NCBI GenBank assembly: GCA_903902325.1
Contig: CAIUUO010000099.1
Span: 1-38,502, forward strand
Direction of reading: 5' to 3'
Length of the DNA stretch: 38,502 bases
Source of the DNA: an uncultured Bacteroidia bacterium
Lineage (GTDB): Bacteria; Bacteroidota; Bacteroidia; Bacteroidales; Prolixibacteraceae
The position numbers and the translations under genes were made by a program. Below the pieces are notes generated by a model that was not told the DNA's origin, did not search any database, and saw only the letters and a program-made list of their open reading frames with translations. Positions 1,345 to 38,502 of the stretch are shown piece by piece. Numbering within the stretch: position 1 is the stretch's first letter; each line of letters starts with the position of its first letter.

Positions 1345-1437
1345 TGAAAGATGATTACTTTTAGAGAACTAAATCTGATATCCAAATGCTCTGACAATCA
1401 ATTTTCGATAGTTTGAACTGTTATCGTCAGATGTATG
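1345..1437 (+). repeat. Island leader, shared with 26150-26245
   Basis: This AT-rich non-coding stretch aligns by eye with 26150-26245. Both contain TTTTAGA-AACTAAATCTG, followed by TTTTC-ATA-TTTG-ACTG and TCGTCA. In both places it lies between a palindrome copy and the first plus-strand gene of an insertion. It could be a promoter/leader or a recombination-associated region. The rest of 1217-1344 shows nothing recognisable beyond short weak inverted repeats. Confidence 0.7.
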
Positions 1438-1470
1438 TACAAGTTATGTAGCATAATAAAACAAACAGAT

Positions 1471-1959
1471 ATGGCAACAGATTGGAACTTAATTATTCAA
1501 GGAAATATTAGTTTGCTTTGGATTCAGGAATGCTTAAATCCTGTTAATAAAAAGAAAACGGTTGAAGAACTAATATTTGAATTCAGGTCAAGTAATCTAA
1601 ATTGCGAGATTCTCAATCCTGGCACTCTGTTTATGGCAACATTTTTATTATTTCTATATCCTAAAGAGGTAGAATTTAATAATTGTAATAAATCAAAAAT
1701 AAGTACTGACAAATTTAAATTATTAGCAAATGAAAATGTTAAAAACAAGATTGTTGACAATTCCTACATAGTTGAGAGAATAAGAAATTCCCTTGCTCAT
1801 GGGCATTTTACTGTTGAAAGAAGTGAGTTAATATTTGAAGATTGGGTTCCCAATAGCAATGGATTAAAACAAAACTACTTTAAATCAAAAATTGGGATTG
1901 GTGAATTTGGTGAATTTATTAATGAATTTATGTTTGAAATAAAGGCACAGAAACTTTAA
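1471..1959 (+). CDS. HEPN-like protein (putative ribonuclease)
   Basis: The frame opens at 1435, but ATG 1471 (MATDWN) is the better start because a GTTATG motif resembling the end of a cassette junction lies at 1443-1448. From this start the protein is 162 aa. Its C-terminal half carries R105-N-S-L-A-H110, the Rx4H signature of HEPN domains, whose members are often RNA-cutting toxins or defence effectors. That assignment rests on the one motif plus a helical context. The gene is strongly AT-rich compared with the PUL genes, and no partner such as an MNT nucleotidyltransferase is adjacent. It is first in an island of nuclease-like genes, followed by an attC-like hairpin at 1971-2098. An intoxication or defence role is inference. 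Confidence 0.55.
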   Translation: MATDWNLIIQGNISLLWIQECLNPVNKKKTVEELIFEFRSSNLNCEILNPGTLFMATFLLFLYPKEVEFNNCNKSKISTDKFKLLANENVKNKIVDNSYIVERIRNSLAHGHFTVERSELIFEDWVPNSNGLKQNYFKSKIGIGEFGEFINEFMFEIKAQKL

Positions 1960-1970
1960 TATTACACAAT

Positions 1971-2098
1971 ATAACACGGGTTTTGTGTCATGCGGGCAGA
2001 CGTGCAAACTTGGAGCTTTGTGCTTCTAATCAAGTTCAATGCTTATTGACAGTCTTGTACTCCGAAACCTGCCCGAACGCAAAGCCCAAAACAGTTAT
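1971..2098 (+). other. attC-like imperfect hairpin between two orphan genes
   Basis: The outer ATAAC (1971-1975) pairs with GTTAT (2094-2098). Inside, GGGTTTTG pairs with CAAAGCCC, then CGGGCAG (1993-1999) with CTGCCCG (2069-2075). Unpaired bases occur on one side and a loop of about 70 nt closes it. Two paired boxes, TAAC/GTTA termini, a length near 128 bp and a position just after a stop codon match the layout of integron attC sites. The terminal heptamers do not fully match the RYYYAAC/GTTRRRY consensus, and no integrase is in the window. Confidence 0.45.
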
Positions 2099-2120
2099 GG
2101 GCCACTAAAAAACACAACAC

Positions 2121-2852
2121 ATGAGAGGAAGTCAGAAACATTTATTAGATTTTATAGATTCGGCAAACTGGATCAGTATATTAAACGAAACATTTGCTGA
2201 TTTAGGATTGTTCATTGATCCAATGATTGATGAATGGATGCCTAAAGGGATTGACAATCCAAAAGAAGCCCAACTTGTTGATTTTTTAAAAAAGATTGAC
2301 AATAATCTATCTACTGACATTCGAAACTGGTGGTTGGCTTCTGACAGAAAAGCAAATACTCCAAATTGGGATTTCCTTTCTACTTGCAAGATTAATGGTG
2401 CAAATGGACTTCTTTTAGTCGAAGCAAAAGCCCATAAAAATGAGTTGAGTATTAATGGTAAAAAACTTGATAAAGATTCTTCTAAAGATTCAATTGCCAA
2501 TCATAAAAGGATTACAGATGCTATAAATGAATCATGTGTAGCTTTAAAAAATCAACATCACAGAATCAACATTTCGGTGGAAAGATGTTATCAACTTTCG
2601 AATAGGATAGCTTATTCATGGTGGCTGGCTAAACATCAAATCCCCGTTATTCTTGTATATATTGGATTTTTAAATGCGGAGGACGTCAATGATATTGGAG
2701 AACCTTTTAAGACAAACGATGATTGGACTTTAAGTTTCATTAATTACGCTAAAATAGTGGGAGTTGATAGTATTATAAACAAAAGGATCGATTGTAACAA
2801 TTCTTATTTTTGGGTTAAACCGCTTGCGATTGATACAAAGAAAAGAAATTAG
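2121..2852 (+). CDS. PD-(D/E)XK-like nuclease-fold protein
   Basis: A 243-aa protein that I do not recognise as a named family. The stretch D84 (PNWDF) to E101-A-K103 (LLLVEAKAH) has the D-x(n)-E-x-K spacing and a hydrophobic strand before the E, typical of the PD-(D/E)XK restriction-endonuclease fold. It has no signal peptide or membrane segment. Its base composition is AT-rich like the genes either side, unlike the window average. It lies between an attC-like hairpin (1971-2098) and a collapsed TAAC/GTTA junction (2859-2872), suggesting a single-gene cassette. A role in DNA cleavage or defence is plausible but rests only on the motif. Confidence 0.5.
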   Translation: MRGSQKHLLDFIDSANWISILNETFADLGLFIDPMIDEWMPKGIDNPKEAQLVDFLKKIDNNLSTDIRNWWLASDRKANTPNWDFLSTCKINGANGLLLVEAKAHKNELSINGKKLDKDSSKDSIANHKRITDAINESCVALKNQHHRINISVERCYQLSNRIAYSWWLAKHQIPVILVYIGFLNAEDVNDIGEPFKTNDDWTLSFINYAKIVGVDSIINKRIDCNNSYFWVKPLAIDTKKRN

Positions 2853-2858
2853 CAGTCC

Positions 2859-2872
2859 ATAACAAACGTTAG
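2859..2872 (+). other. Collapsed TAAC...GTTA junction
   Basis: ATAAC at 2859-2863 and GTTAG at 2868-2872 are separated by only four bases and sit 7 bp after a stop codon and 27 bp before the next ATG. It looks like the outer ends of an attC-type site with the interior deleted. Chance is possible given the short length. Confidence 0.25.
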
Positions 2873-2898
2873 AACCAATAATCAAGTAGCAAGCAACT

Positions 2899-3762
2899 AT
2901 GGAGAATAGAATACTGTTAAAGGACATTTTACCACTTGATGATCTTAAGAAACAAGGGAAAGTACTTTTGGTAAGGCATTACCACGAGAGAATCAAGGTG
3001 ATGACAGAAAATAACCTTATTGAAGAATACCAAAGTTTTCAAGACAAGAGGGCATTCTTCGACTGTAAATACATTGTTTCCTTTATCGCGGGAGAAAAAA
3101 ATAGTGGGATTTTTTATGGAGTATTTGAAGTTATTGGGAGACTCAAAAAAGAAAATCTTCCAAGATATTCAAAGGAACTTGAGAAATATTGTGATGAGCA
3201 GGACTACAACAAAGACATATTTCTAAATTTGGAGAGAATTCCAAAGTTTGACATTTATAGAAATAGGTTGGTAATTAATTGGATTGTACCTCGAGGTTGG
3301 TATAACACTTACGGAGAGGTAAAAGACAAAGAAGTAATTAAAATTTTGCCAAACAACTTCGTTGACGATTTCCCTGGATTAATGAATGTGATGGTTTCAT
3401 ATCTGGATTTAAAAAAAATTATTACAAATCCCGATTCACATTCGGTATGGTTTGAATCATTGAAAAGTCTTCAAGCAATTTATCTGATACTCGACAAAAA
3501 AAGTGGCAATAAATATATTGGGACCACCTATGGAGAGAATGGTTTATGGCAGCGATGGGAAACCTACGTTAAAGGTGACGGAACTGGAAATAACAAGGAA
3601 TTAAAAGTACTTAAGGAAAAAGATCCTGACTTTTATTTGAATTTTCAGTTTTCAATTTTAGAGGTTCTTTCAAAAACTGCAGATCAAAAATACTGTACAC
3701 AAAAAGAGTCGATTTGGAAAGAAAAGCTTGGATCAAGAGCCTTTGGATTAAATAGAAACTAA
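2899..3762 (+). CDS. GIY-YIG endonuclease family protein
   Basis: The 287-aa protein has a C-terminal GIY-YIG nuclease domain from about residue 190. It shows I194-Y195 in the first motif, Y-I-G at 206-208, R219 (LWQRW) as the expected catalytic arginine, E270 (QKESIW) as the metal-binding glutamate, and the typical ending KLGSRAFGLNRN. The N-terminal 180 residues match nothing I know and could bind or select DNA. GIY-YIG enzymes include restriction and homing endonucleases, so a conflict role is likely. The gene is AT-rich and lies between the PD-(D/E)XK-like gene and the methyltransferase. The 62-bp gap to the methyltransferase contains no promoter I can recognise, so co-transcription with it is possible. 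Confidence 0.75.
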   Translation: MENRILLKDILPLDDLKKQGKVLLVRHYHERIKVMTENNLIEEYQSFQDKRAFFDCKYIVSFIAGEKNSGIFYGVFEVIGRLKKENLPRYSKELEKYCDEQDYNKDIFLNLERIPKFDIYRNRLVINWIVPRGWYNTYGEVKDKEVIKILPNNFVDDFPGLMNVMVSYLDLKKIITNPDSHSVWFESLKSLQAIYLILDKKSGNKYIGTTYGENGLWQRWETYVKGDGTGNNKELKVLKEKDPDFYLNFQFSILEVLSKTADQKYCTQKESIWKEKLGSRAFGLNRN

Positions 3763-3824
3763 ATATTATTGCTGCTAACTTCTACCACCAACCCACACAT
3801 TCATAAAACCACGAACCCCCAAAT

Positions 3825-4943
3825 ATGGCCACCAGCAATCTTACCAACGCAAAAAATGCAAAAAACGACGAGTTTTACACCCAGTACCACGATATAGAAA
3901 AAGAGATCAATGCATATTTGGAATACAACTCTGATGTGTTTCGGGACAAGACGGTGCTGTTGCCTTGCGATGATCCGGAATGGAGCAACTTTACCAAGTT
4001 TTTCGCGCAAAATTTTGAGCGGTTCGGCCTGAAAAAGCTGATAAGTACAAGCTACGCCGCCGACAGCAAAAAATATAAAACCGGATACCAGCCTACCCTG
4101 TTCGAAGTAAACGACCCTCAATTCGATTACAACAAAACTACCAAAAACGGCAAAATATTTACCCTCACACACGACAAGTCTGGTGATGGCAAGATCGATG
4201 TAAACGACCTGGAATGGCATTACCTGGCAGGAGACGGCGACTTTAATAGTAAAGAGATCAAAAAACTGCGCGACGAAGCCGATATCATCATAACGAACCC
4301 GCCTTTCTCATTGTTTCGTGATTTTTTGGCATGGATTGTTGAGGCGGATAAACAGTTTTTGATTATTGGCAATATGAACGCCATCACCTACAAAGAAGTT
4401 TTCCCACTGATTAAGGAACTTAAAATGTGGTTTGGACCAAGTATTAAGAGTGGTGACCGGGAATTCCAGGTGCCTGATAACTATCCTATAGAAGCTGCCG
4501 GCTGGAGAATCGATGTTGAAGGCCGAAAGTTTTTGCGGATAAAAGGTGTTCGATGGTTTACAAATCTTGATCACGGGCTTCGCCACCAGGCACTACCGCT
4601 TATGACAATGCAGGACAACCTGAAATACAGTAAGCACAAAGAAATAAAAGGGAAAGAATCGTATGATCGCTATGACAACTATGATGCCATTGAAGTGCCG
4701 TTTACCGATGCTATTCCGAGCGATTATGAGGGTGCGATGGGTGTACCAATAAGTTTTCTTGATAAATATTCCCCTGAACAATTTGAGATTATCGGGACAA
4801 GCCTGGAATTGGGAGTTTCTATGTCAAAATTGGCTGAGAAAGGCACTTACGTTCAAGGCGGCCCGCGTTTTTATTTATCTAACGGAGATGGTACACATAG
4901 AAGGATGTATGACCGTATAGTCATTAAAAAGAGGACATTATGA
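3825..4943 (+). CDS. EcoRI-type adenine-specific DNA methyltransferase
   Basis: The 372-aa protein resembles the EcoRI modification methylase family. It has the N-terminal block DEFYTQ, the segment CDDPEWSNF, and the catalytic N158-P-P-F161 motif of N6-adenine methyltransferases. It should transfer a methyl group from AdoMet to adenine in a specific DNA site. Its stop codon overlaps the first copy of the downstream nuclease start codon in an ATGA (4940-4943), implying translational coupling in an ancestral operon. GC content is higher than in the three genes to its left, so it may have arrived separately. The neighbouring DUF262-HNH gene is the likely nuclease partner. No separate EcoRI-like endonuclease is present. 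Confidence 0.88.
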   Translation: MATSNLTNAKNAKNDEFYTQYHDIEKEINAYLEYNSDVFRDKTVLLPCDDPEWSNFTKFFAQNFERFGLKKLISTSYAADSKKYKTGYQPTLFEVNDPQFDYNKTTKNGKIFTLTHDKSGDGKIDVNDLEWHYLAGDGDFNSKEIKKLRDEADIIITNPPFSLFRDFLAWIVEADKQFLIIGNMNAITYKEVFPLIKELKMWFGPSIKSGDREFQVPDNYPIEAAGWRIDVEGRKFLRIKGVRWFTNLDHGLRHQALPLMTMQDNLKYSKHKEIKGKESYDRYDNYDAIEVPFTDAIPSDYEGAMGVPISFLDKYSPEQFEIIGTSLELGVSMSKLAEKGTYVQGGPRFYLSNGDGTHRRMYDRIVIKKRTL

Positions 4944-4996
4944 AAACAACACTCAAAACCGATATCACCGTCGCAGCCATTTGTGAAGGATTTGTC
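4940..4996 (+). repeat. 57-bp direct repeat, copy A (duplicated gene start)
   Basis: Identical to 5124-5180. Both copies begin exactly at an ATG and cover the first 19 codons of the DUF262-HNH gene. They are 184 bp apart start to start, which leaves 127 bp of unrelated sequence between them. Confidence 0.97.
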
Positions 4997-5044
4997 ACTT
5001 CCGAATCAGGAAGCTACAACCTCGAAGAGGTCATATTTTCATAA
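4940..5044 (+). CDS. 34-aa truncated duplicate of the DUF262 N-terminus
   Basis: This frame starts in the ATGA overlap with the methyltransferase stop. It encodes the same first 19 residues as the downstream nuclease, then 15 unrelated residues, then TAA at 5042-5044. It could be the broken start left after an insertion or duplication, or a translated leader peptide controlling the nuclease. Because it overlaps the methyltransferase stop, ribosomes finishing that gene could re-initiate here rather than at the real nuclease start at 5124. Translation through it would disrupt the stem-loops at 4998-5031. There is no homology evidence for an independent function. Confidence 0.5.
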   Translation: MKTTLKTDITVAAICEGFVTSESGSYNLEEVIFS

Positions 5045-5103
5045 CCGAAAGGTCAACGACCTTCGGCTAAAAGCGAAATAATAAACATCTGCCTGGAAGG
5101 CAG
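4998..5103 (+). promoter_or_regulatory. Four consecutive stem-loops in the nuclease leader
   Basis: Stem 1 is CTTCC/GGAAG (4998-5013). Stem 2 is ACCTC-GAA-GAGGT (5019-5031). Stem 3 is CCGAA-a-GGTC/GACC-TTCGG with a 3-nt loop (5045-5066). Stem 4 is CTGCCT-GGA-AGGCAG (5089-5103). All lie in the 127 bp between the duplicated gene starts. Nothing longer than the 34-aa frame is encoded here. This density of perfect short stems suggests a structured RNA that could time nuclease expression after methylation; that role is inference. Confidence 0.6.
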
Positions 5104-5123
5104 GACATCAAGTTAACCAAGAA

Positions 5124-5180
5124 ATGAAAACAACACTCAAAACCGATATCACCGTCGCAGCCATTTGTGAAGGATTTGTC
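5124..5180 (+). repeat. 57-bp direct repeat, copy B (functional gene start)
   Basis: Identical to 4940-4996. This copy continues into the full DUF262-HNH frame. Recombination between the copies would delete 184 bp and restore direct ATGA coupling to the methyltransferase. Confidence 0.97.
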
Positions 5181-6287
5181 TATAACGAACTCGAAGGCAA
5201 GGGTTTGTTTGGCTTGTCGGGTCAATTGACCATCCAGCCGGAGTACCAGCGGAACTACATTTATGCCGACGGGAAGAAAGATGTGGCCGTGATCGAATCT
5301 ATCCTCAAGGGCTATCCGCTTGGCTTAATTTACTTTGTGAAAGTAAATGACCATCAATTTGAAGTACTGGACGGGCAGCAACGTATTACCAGTTTTGGGC
5401 GGTTCGTCACCAACAAATTTGCCTTGAAGGACGAAAACGGCATGGAGCAATATTTCAGCGGTATTGCCGCAGACAAGCAGTCCAGGATACTGGAAACACA
5501 ACTTACCATTTACGAATGTGAAGGCAGCGAAAGTGAGATCAAGCAGTGGTTTAAGACCATCAACATTGCAGGTATTCCGCTCAACGAACAGGAGTTGCTC
5601 AACGCCATCTTCTCCGGGCCATTTGTAACTTTAGGCAAAGAGGAGTTCAGCAACAGCCAGAACTCCAACATCCAAAAATGGAGCGCCTATGTATCCGGCA
5701 GCGCCAACCGGCAGGAGTTTCTGGAATGTGCGCTCGATTGGGTGAGCAAGGGCAGCATCAGCGATTACATGAGCCGGCACCGCTTTGATACGAACATCAA
5801 GGAATTGAAAACCTATTTCAACAGTGTCATCGAATGGGTTTCAGGCGTTTTTAAAGATGTAGAGAATGAGATGCGCGGGCTGGAGTGGGGGCGCTTGTAT
5901 GAAGCGTATCACAAGAAAGCATACAACCCGGCAAAGGTGTCGGAAGAGTTGCAAAAGCTGATGGGTGACTCCTATGTCAAAAACCGGAAGGGTATTTTTG
6001 AGTATATTCTTGGTGGTTCAGTCGACACAAAATTGTTGGATATCCGGGTCTTTGACGAGGCCACCAAAAAATCAATTTACTCGGTACAGACTGCAGAAGC
6101 TGAATTAAAGAAAGAATCGAACTGTCCGCTTTGCATTTTTGGACACGATGCCAACAAAATTAAGATCTGGAAGTTGGCCGAAATGGATGCCGACCATGTG
6201 GCAGCCTGGAGCAAGGGTGGAGGAACAGTTGCCGGGAACTGTCAGATGTTGTGCAAGACGCACAACCGGGCAAAAGGGAACAAATAG
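5124..6287 (+). CDS. DUF262-HNH nuclease, predicted partner of the methyltransferase
   Basis: The 387-aa protein begins with a DUF262 (GmrS/ParB-like) domain. It shows the QPEYQRNY segment and D83-G-Q-Q-R87, the conserved DGQQR motif used for nucleotide binding or hydrolysis in this superfamily. The C-terminus (about 330-387) is an HNH nuclease: CPLC, D357-H358, N372 and H380 near a second Cys pair. Characterised DUF262 proteins (GmrSD, SspE, BrxU) restrict DNA in ways that depend on modification. Pairing with an EcoRI-type adenine methylase suggests a two-gene restriction-modification system. Whether it cuts unmethylated or modified DNA cannot be read from sequence. ATG 5124 is chosen because copy A at 4940 stops after 34 codons. 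Palindrome copy 3 follows the stop. Confidence 0.82.
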
Positions 6288-6313
6288 CAGAACCCCACGC
6301 TGGCGCCTGGATC

Positions 6314-6346
6314 AGTCAGCAGGTGACTTGGAGTCACCCGCTGACT
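6314..6346. repeat. Palindromic element, copy 3 (right edge of island 1)
   Basis: Arms at 6314-6328 and 6332-6346 around TGG, with a single mismatch. It lies 27 bp after the nuclease stop codon and ends the island that begins at copy 2 (1184-1216). Confidence 0.9.
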
Positions 6347-6425
6347 TCTTAAAACGGAAAGAAAATTAAAAAAAGACAAAATAATATTTTACTTATAACT
6401 AAATTGTTTACTTTTACGCCACACA

Positions 6426-25975: not shown

Positions 25976-26050
25976 GGAAGGGTCGGAGCGACGCACTTCC
26001 AATAATAGATATTTGATTGTTGATTTTGGATAAATTAATCGGACCTTTAA

Positions 26051-26085
26051 GCCAACTGGTGACCCGGAGTCACCCATTAACTGGC
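26051..26085. repeat. Palindromic element, copy 4 (degenerate; left edge of insertion 2)
   Basis: It keeps the core ...GGTGACC-CGG-AGTCACCC... and the outer GCCA/TGGC pair, but the left arm lacks four bases and has mismatches. It is the left boundary of the second insertion, matching copy 2 in position. Confidence 0.6.
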
Positions 26086-26091
26086 GGCCGG

Positions 26092-26381: not shown

Positions 26382-26831
26382 ATGAAATACAAAATCGGAA
26401 CAAAGGAAAGCCCAATGGCATTAAAGACACCACCATTAACGAGCGAATACACTATGCATGTTGACGAAAAAGATGGAAAAGAAGTTTTAGTATGCACCGT
26501 TGGCAAAACGGTATTGCATTACGACATCCGCTGTCTGGATGACCTTCATTCTATGCTCAAAAAGCACGGCGAGTGGATGGAACTTGGTAGTGCTGATGAG
26601 CAGAAACCAGCAAAGGAAGGAACCGTAGAAGCCTGGGGTCGTTCCGGGGAAAATCCGGTTAAAGGATGGTATGGTTTAAAGAAAGGACTTCGCGGACGAT
26701 TTGGAATGTATATTCCGCCCTTAATGGAAGAACTTGGACTTGCAGAAGTAACACACGAGGCAAAGGGAAACAAAATGAAAGCGAAGGACGAAGGACAAGG
26801 AAAGTCACCGATAGCAAAAGAATCTCGTTAA
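26382..26831 (+). CDS. Conserved-looking small protein of unknown function
   Basis: The 149-aa protein begins MKYKIGTKESPMALKTPP. Its central block EGTVEAWGRSGENPVKGWYG then LKKGLRGRFGMYIPPLMEEL looks strongly conserved in character (Gly, Trp, aromatic residues). The C-terminal 25 residues are Lys/Glu/Gly-rich and probably disordered. There is no signal peptide. I do not recognise a function; it may belong to one of the small DUF families. It is the only plus-strand gene inside the PUL. It is bracketed by palindrome copies 4 and 5 and preceded by the leader shared with island 1, so it is most likely cargo of an insertion. Its stop codon ends on the first base of copy 5. Confidence 0.8.
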   Translation: MKYKIGTKESPMALKTPPLTSEYTMHVDEKDGKEVLVCTVGKTVLHYDIRCLDDLHSMLKKHGEWMELGSADEQKPAKEGTVEAWGRSGENPVKGWYGLKKGLRGRFGMYIPPLMEELGLAEVTHEAKGNKMKAKDEGQGKSPIAKESR

Positions 26832-26863
26832 GTCATCGGGTGTCTTGGAGTCACCCGATGACT
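26831..26863. repeat. Palindromic element, copy 5 (right edge of insertion 2)
   Basis: Arms at 26831-26845 and 26849-26863 around TGG, with one mismatch. Compared with copy 1, the sixth stem pair is T-A instead of G-C, changed on both arms. It lies between the convergent stop codons of the unknown gene and the HTCS. Confidence 0.9.
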
Positions 26864-26876
26864 CACGATCATCTGC

Positions 26877-38336: not shown

Positions 38337-38354
38337 AGGCGAAAGGAAAAAGTA
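38318..38354. repeat. AAAGGATAAAGG-type tract at the gene end
   Basis: A third copy of the AAAGGA/TAAAGG word tract also seen after carB and argR. Here it supplies the last codons and the TAA stop of the acyltransferase gene. Confidence 0.65.
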
Positions 38355-38383
38355 GGCATTGGTGTGGGTCGAAGATATGAGAC

Positions 38384-38502
38384 ATGAGATATAAGACATG
38401 AGATATAAGACATGAGATATAAGACATGAGATATAAGACATGAGATATAAGACATGAGATATAAGACATGAGATATAAGACATGAGATATAAGACATGAG
38501 AT
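38384..38502. repeat. 14-bp tandem repeat (7-bp subunits), runs off the window
   Basis: About 8.5 near-perfect copies of ATGAGATATAAGAC, itself two related heptamers (ATGAGAT and ATAAGAC). Leading diverged heptamers occur from about 38376. The frames over it have no coding character beyond the repeat. The right end lies outside the window. Confidence 0.95.

Follow-up and report, generated by a model that had tools for sequence, protein, structure and literature searches.

A REP-like hairpin repeat between two copies of a restriction nuclease start: probable left end of a Y1-transposase element

In the locus considered here an adenine methyltransferase gene is followed by a restriction nuclease gene whose first 57 bp occur twice, on either side of a 127-bp spacer, and the question raised by this arrangement is what the spacer is and how it came to lie between two copies of the same gene start. 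We address it from the window, by which we mean the whole stretch of 38.5 kb that was analysed, and from related loci in other genomes. Our answer is that the insert is very probably the left end of an IS200-like Y1-transposase element, lodged in the junction by a long target duplication, whose transposase was then lost.

The repeated nuclease start and its surroundings

The preliminary description had reported an exact 57-bp duplication with both copies beginning at an ATG, a first copy that overlaps the methylase stop and yields only a short peptide, and a second copy that starts the real nuclease, and all three points hold (Table 1). The copies agree at 57 of 57 positions and lie 184 bp apart from start to start; they were detected as a 66-nt pair at 94% identity, exact over the first 57. 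A survey of the 38.5-kb window (direct-repeat families of at least 26 nt, 16-base seed) gave three families, of which this is one. The methylase end and the first ATG form a 4-nt ATGA overlap, copy 1 opens the 34-aa ORF, and the second copy opens the 387-aa nuclease frame. The methyltransferase gene, upstream partner of the nuclease gene, also matches PADLOC MTase_II (E 8.2e-94).

The four short hairpins claimed for the spacer are likewise recovered as four separate stems that occupy the same positions under DNA and RNA energies, the stem at 5045-5066 being of 9 bp with a one-base bulge. The DNA fold of the spacer has a z of -4.18 (0 of 200 shuffles equally stable) and its RNA fold a z of -2.75 (1 of 200); the longer stretch 4940-5200 (261 nt) exceeds its shuffles in structure only slightly (z -1.85, 9 of 200).

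Table 1. Features of the methylase-nuclease junction, in window positions
Feature	Position	Strand	Remark
Adenine methyltransferase gene (Pfam EcoRI_methylase)	3825..4943	+	PF13651 E 7.8e-130
34-aa ORF from copy 1 into the insert	4940..5044	+	34 codons, TAA at 5042-5044
Copy 1 of the nuclease start	4940..4996	+	ATG overlaps methylase stop (ATGA), like insert-free orthologues
Junction segment ACTTCCGAATCAGG...	4997..5017	+	holds stem 4998-5013; in all three G727 units; decayed in G539
Spacer stems	4998-5013; 5019-5031; 5045-5066; 5089-5103		DNA and RNA folding
REP-like three-hairpin element, probable left end of the Y1-transposase element family	5018..5106	+	model R2 match
Third hairpin and transposase leader	5088..5118	+	30/31 against G727 unit 2 before the transposase ATG
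AAGAA before the second ATG	5119..5123	+	as in the G539 nuclease-side leader
Copy 2 of the nuclease start, opening the full-length gene	5124..5180	+	exact repeat
GmrSD_N (DUF262) and HNH restriction nuclease, 387 aa	5124..6287	+	frame open throughout

Some further features of the window may be recorded. A GIY-YIG protein (2899-3762; PADLOC UzuA match, E 1.2e-75) is encoded directly 5' of the methylase, and a 243-aa ORF at 2121-2852, for which Pfam, PADLOC and NCBIfam gave no match, contains a VEAKAH that we take to be reminiscent of PD-(D/E)XK nucleases. A palindromic 41-nt repeat of the GTCAGCGGGTGACTTGGAGTCACCCGCTGAC type occurs in five copies (2-42, 1181-1221, 6311-6351, 26047-26087 and 26828-26868), the other four being 63-90% identical to the first; two copies flank the defence genes at 1435-6287. 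A 14-bp tandem repeat occupies 38345-38502, up to the contig end.

The hairpin family and its Y1 transposase

The preliminary description also suggested looking for the spacer elsewhere, and this search led to a dispersed family in Bacteroidota records. By BLAST at E 1e-4 over 149 genomes of the order, the spacer was found only in the window's genome, where matches outside the locus are at chance level, and in G053, where a 125-aa Y1 transposase is enclosed by hairpin arrays that share 76-85% identity with parts of 5030-5107. A central-hairpin pattern, run over the genome contigs in one full scan, hit 28 sites in 23 stretches, all in Bacteroidota-titled records, and most of these consist of hairpin 1, the conserved flank TTTCATAACC, hairpin 2, 19-25 nt and CTGCCTGAAAGGCAGGAC or a near-match; the script did not locate hairpin 3 in 6 of the 28, including the site in L050, which looks like a chance match from its flanks. 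In the covariance model R2, built from 15 copies with the window left out, hairpin 1 covaries (4 of 6 pairs changed on both sides) and hairpins 2 and 3 are nearly invariant, the low variation of hairpin 2 being due in part to the search pattern, which fixed it. The model scores 91.2 bits (E 6.9e-19; next-best window match 12.3 bits) over window positions 5018-5106, an element made up of the last three stems of Table 1 and then GAC. With this covariance-model support, the spacer is a member of a REP-like three-hairpin repeat family.

At E 0.001 seven genomes hold at least 22, 43, 15, 9, 15, 8 and 6 R2 copies, 150 of 1514-4157 candidates having been scored in each, so that absences are not firm; the window's own genome has the spacer once among the candidates scored. 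Across the order at least 21 of 393 genomes, the window's included, matched at E 1e-6, with 11 candidates per genome scored and absences again not firm. Neighbouring copies within 400 bp of each other are converging in 18 cases, diverging in 20 and in the same direction in 13 (110 of 115 R2 matches, five weak or truncated ones being omitted), and inverted pairing of the BIME/REPIN kind is therefore present in the family; the window copy is single. An earlier model, R1, was abandoned: over 295 genomes of the class it gave, beyond the window, weak matches in G263 that belong by eye to a different palindrome family. Viral contigs yielded no match to any of three DNA patterns and no relative of the transposase, plasmids yielded no match, and among phages only the nuclease start was matched, in one Flavobacterium phage (two records). 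As a separate observation, G714 (L180, 1114-1408) carries a tandem 190-bp unit made of hairpin element and a 105-bp stretch of other DNA that is 99% identical.

These results bear on the preliminary proposals that the spacer is a structured regulatory RNA or an inserted small RNA element. An Rfam scan of 4600-5500 gave two sub-threshold matches, neither in the spacer, and the stems belong to the dispersed Y1-linked family; the regulatory RNA is not upheld, and of the second proposal the inserted element stands, whereas its being an RNA element is not supported. Once transcribed, the hairpins may nevertheless have a role.

A Y1 transposase lies behind the left end of the element in G053 (L064) and at L053, L058, L061 and L070, whose transposases are 80-83% identical to the G053 protein, that of L058 with an internal stop; the Pfam run, which covered three of these five loci, gave the Y1_Tnp domain. 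Repeats flank the transposase at all five loci and in the orthologous loci of G539 and G727 described below; the window locus has no such transposase. Related transposases were found at E 1e-35 in 48 of 393 genomes of the order, and the window's genome has none of this kind at that threshold. It does encode another Y1 transposase (L034, 1498-1965), 33% identical to that of G053 and set between palindromes of the GGTGCAGCGCACC type, which form a different hairpin family.

Orthologous junctions and the proposed history of the insert

Comparison of orthologous loci, also suggested beforehand, was carried out on two sets. Among the first 42 loci (L010, L011 and L072-L111, four without a visible methylase) a transposase was in view only in G539, and a second set of 15 (L227-L241, some contigs repeated) added G727; over the 57 loci R2 matched the junction only in these two genomes, a weak match in G722 falling behind its nuclease. 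Their nucleases are 84% (G539) and 85% (G727) identical to that of the window. In G005, which belongs to the window's genus, in G722, from the genus of G539 and G727, and in L241, methylase and nuclease meet in the ATGA overlap and there is no insert. The distant orthologues L080 and L081, with 386-387 bp from methylase match to nuclease, were considered and set aside, as they hold other sequence and no repeated start.

In G727 the methylase is followed by unit 1, unit 2 leading into the transposase, the right end, unit 3 and the nuclease. Each unit consists of a nuclease start and hairpins and is followed by an ATG; the start of unit 3 is decayed and the transposase is intact. Compared with the window, the insert portion shows 83% identity in unit 1, 87% in unit 2 and 83% in unit 3. 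Window positions 5088-5118 correspond to the run into the G727 transposase, and 5101-5125 match the transposase leader of unit 2 better than any of 3000 shuffles. Among 273 loci ACTTNCGAATCAGGA occurs only in the window-locus stretches, in G727 (three times) and in G033 (once); the 19-nt exact left-junction match in G033 sits in a histidine-kinase-like ORF and was dismissed as chance.

G539 has an intact transposase and a hairpin array between methylase and nuclease, and the sequence after its methylase stop aligns with window copy 1 and continues into the insert. This left junction scored 46.5 against a maximum of 45.5 in dinucleotide shuffles (0 of 3000 as good); 1 of 500 plain shuffles equalled the window score, and the match is therefore good, not extreme. 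Against the nuclease start of G539 itself the remnant shows no significant resemblance, 315 of 3000 shuffles doing as well, and the right junction scored 41.5 against a maximum of 39.0 (0 of 3000). The junctions are thus common to three genomes, two of which retain the transposase.

The same junctions weigh on two simpler accounts. A duplication by chance, tandem or through template switching, that was confined to the window lineage and copied hairpin sequence would agree with the single spacer among the candidates scored in the window's genome and with the lack there of such a transposase at E 1e-35; that the left junction recurs in every one of the three G727 units and, in decayed form, in G539 refutes it unless such junctions arose several times, and we regard it as very unlikely. 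The preliminary description had taken absence of the spacer from all relatives, with no stable fold, as the mark of a one-off duplication, and the spacer is found in G727 and, decayed, in G539. An assembly artefact of mixed strains is scarcely credible: the assembly of the window's genome is split into 304 contigs, short reads cope poorly with 57-bp repeats and the G727 contig is just 4.1 kb long, but both junctions recur in other assemblies, and in G539 the contig concerned is 263 kb long. Every carrier genome is a draft assembly of many contigs, in which tandem copy number may be collapsed.

Copies of the other nuclease end were also seen. Behind a second, different Y1 transposase, which is accompanied by GCCCGTAGGGC repeats, G722 (L227, 439-485 and 1500-1546) repeats 47 bp of the nuclease 3' end at 91% identity. 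G727 (L242, 677-766 and 1379-1468) repeats the nuclease 3' end, as a 139-column copy, behind a 151-aa ORF that neither Pfam nor NCBIfam matched, and a similar-looking ORF lies upstream of the G539 methylase (L221, 7520-8011). The window, G005 and G539 have no such 3' copy.

In a nuclease tree of 28 rows the three carriers fall into a supported clade of seven (100/99) with G005, G722, L241 and L093, the last of which is on a contig that begins at the nuclease, so that its junction is out of view. The carriers do not form one clade, at least two changes being required, and loss, transfer or repeated gain is therefore needed: the tree is compatible with a single gain followed by losses via recombination at the 57-bp repeats, with transfer, and with gain on several occasions.

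We propose the following history for the window. An element with the hairpin set and the transposase leader as its left end would have entered the methylase-nuclease junction within the initial 57 bp of the nuclease gene, and its insertion would have duplicated these 57 bp or brought a copy of them, so that the downstream copy kept the nuclease whole and the one upstream continued to overlap the methylase stop. Units of start fragment and hairpin would then have multiplied in tandem around the transposase, as in G727, and the window lineage would have been left with one unit after deletion of the transposase from before its ATG to before the nuclease ATG. At its end the window insert carries the transposase leader, matched at 30 of 31 bases, which makes it a transposase-less derivative in our reading, and this loss is supported by the bases before the second ATG, which read GACATCAAGTTAACC, as in the transposase leader, and then AAGAA, which matches the nuclease-side leader of G539. 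The deletion joint would lie at the left edge of AAGAA, as suggested by two partial matches, five bases being few. A joint exactly at the transposase ATG was dropped because hairpin 3 stands 20 nt from the ATG in the window versus 14-16 nt before transposase starts, and because the last five bases match the nuclease-side leader.

The identity of the two starts requires one more step. The window and G727 nucleases differ with a pS of 0.65, although copy 1 equals copy 2 in the window (56 of 56 columns; in G727, unit 1 agrees with its own nuclease at 53 of 56), and recent exchange must therefore be added to the history. At an insert-like divergence of 13-17% the probability of no difference in 57 bp would be 4e-4 to 2e-5 with all sites free, a range that overstates the improbability because part of the start is under coding constraint; exchange between the start copies, or a recent event, is implied by this comparison.

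Continuing exchange is also what a phase switch would entail, in which recombination between the 57-bp repeats drops the unit and recouples the genes, unequal exchange multiplies it, and cells differ within a population. The 57/57 identity despite old divergence, the three units of G727 against one in the window, and the clean ATGA loci without insert in the same two genera (G005, G722) speak for it. The preliminary description had predicted that loss of the 184-bp unit couples the genes, and the product of such loss is indeed the ATGA junction seen in orthologues; its reversible switch does not follow, as deletion is one-way, leaves a single copy and cannot reverse itself, and the locus without insert could be the ancestral one. 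Genomes do differ in whether they carry the unit, and a switch of this kind seems to us possible but doubtful. By the transposon history that we prefer, a mobile hairpin has lodged where methylase and nuclease are otherwise coupled via the ATGA overlap.

Nuclease expression and known systems

Loss of the ATGA overlap should uncouple translation of the nuclease from that of the methylase. Ribosomes leaving the methylase would translate the 34-aa decoy and the nuclease would be started anew behind a hairpin leader, and would therefore probably be made later or less. Whether selection has kept this arrangement is a further matter: an adopted leader, in which the hairpin 5' region and the decoy ORF are maintained to delay the nuclease after the methylase, would be consistent with an ORF whose length and stop codon are shared by the window and two units of G727, with pN below pS over the whole ORF (0.10-0.11 against 0.25-0.34, the window being compared with the units), with the stable spacer stems and with the ATG after each unit. 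However, the constraint lies in the nuclease-derived part, no selection being evident in the 15-codon tail (pN 0.17; pS 0.20 for unit 1 and 0.29 for unit 2, on about 10 synonymous sites); near relatives do without the insert, G539 and unit 3 of G727 have decayed starts, and the plus strand of 3701-5200 has no TAnnTTTG motif. We hold such adoption to be unlikely.

Long flanking duplications are not a rule of the family. In a survey of 59 clusters, the window counted and 10 clusters having a flank shortened by the contig end or the stretch fetched, flanking repeats of at least 20 bp were absent from 58, the window being the one exception, which does not bear out a family-wide rule at cluster level. 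Repeats of non-element DNA across a hairpin occurred in 5 of 51 sources, the window included and that of L149 being partly element sequence, and elsewhere in 2 of 51; in a second set 9 of 29 loci had a direct repeat across a hairpin and 12 of 29 one without a hairpin between. For 13 of 30 further transposases a direct repeat of at least 24 bp spans the gene, many of these repeats being palindromic arrays. It is a tentative idea at most that long target duplications are a by-product of the way in which Y1 transposases of this subclass mobilise their hairpin elements, by replication or break repair, and that insertion into gene ends, which are recreated in the process, would place removable hairpin leaders between restriction-modification genes and set nuclease timing, with recombination between the repeats as the way out; the duplications that could be cited for it are the 57 bp of the window and the 47 bp at the other gene end in G722, around a different Y1 transposase.

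How REP sequences spread is described as poorly understood and mechanistically open in the accessible text of PMC8266576. The present locus bears on both insertion and loss, since it exists with the transposase (G539, G727), after its loss (window) and free of insert (G005, G722), with readable junctions. Like REP/REPIN sequences with their RAYT (TnpA_REP), the family consists of dispersed multi-copy short hairpins (6-43 copies in the seven genomes), often in inverted pairs, beside a Y1 HuH transposase, and the tandem clusters that take in flanking DNA have their counterpart in REPIN clusters, ordered and including flanking sequence (PMC3116915, as far as accessible), and in REP clusters reiterated together with flanking DNA (PMC3733652, likewise). 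Here, in contrast, there are three hairpins per set, the transposase has the subclass 1.2 Y motif, and the flank that has been duplicated belongs to a restriction nuclease gene, of which it is the beginning. REP sequences carry a GTAG or GTGG tetranucleotide 5' of the hairpin; the conserved flank in this family reads TTTCATAACC.

TnpAY1 subclass 1.2 is characterised, in the accessible part of PMC6006769, by the motif YIKNQKEHH, low copy number and no REP, and is said there to be generally without typical terminal IS200 structures. The transposases studied here resemble it in the Y motif (YIKNQKEHH in G539 and G727, YIMNQKEHH in G053, all three agreeing with the signature Y---Q--HH), in DHIH or NHIH, in a length of 124-149 aa and in their occurrence in Bacteroidota. 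They differ in the W motif, which is WA (GWAVSF or GWAISF) and not WQ, and in being accompanied by a hairpin family of up to 43 copies, which ties such a family to a subclass tabulated without REP in the accessible part of that source.

With IS200/IS605 elements they share the Y1_Tnp domain, and the G727 protein is NCBIfam transpos_IS200. IS200/IS605 elements are not known to duplicate their target on insertion; 57-bp repeats flank the insert here.

We found no literature combining tandem flanking repeats of REP/RAYT type with restriction-modification, most subscription journals lying outside our coverage. The closest parallel for the duplication comes from restriction-modification insertions with long, variable target duplications (Nobusato 2000, as cited in the accessible part of PMC3031569), which resemble the present case in long variable direct repeats that are open to unequal exchange; the restriction-modification genes are the insert there, whereas here they are the target.
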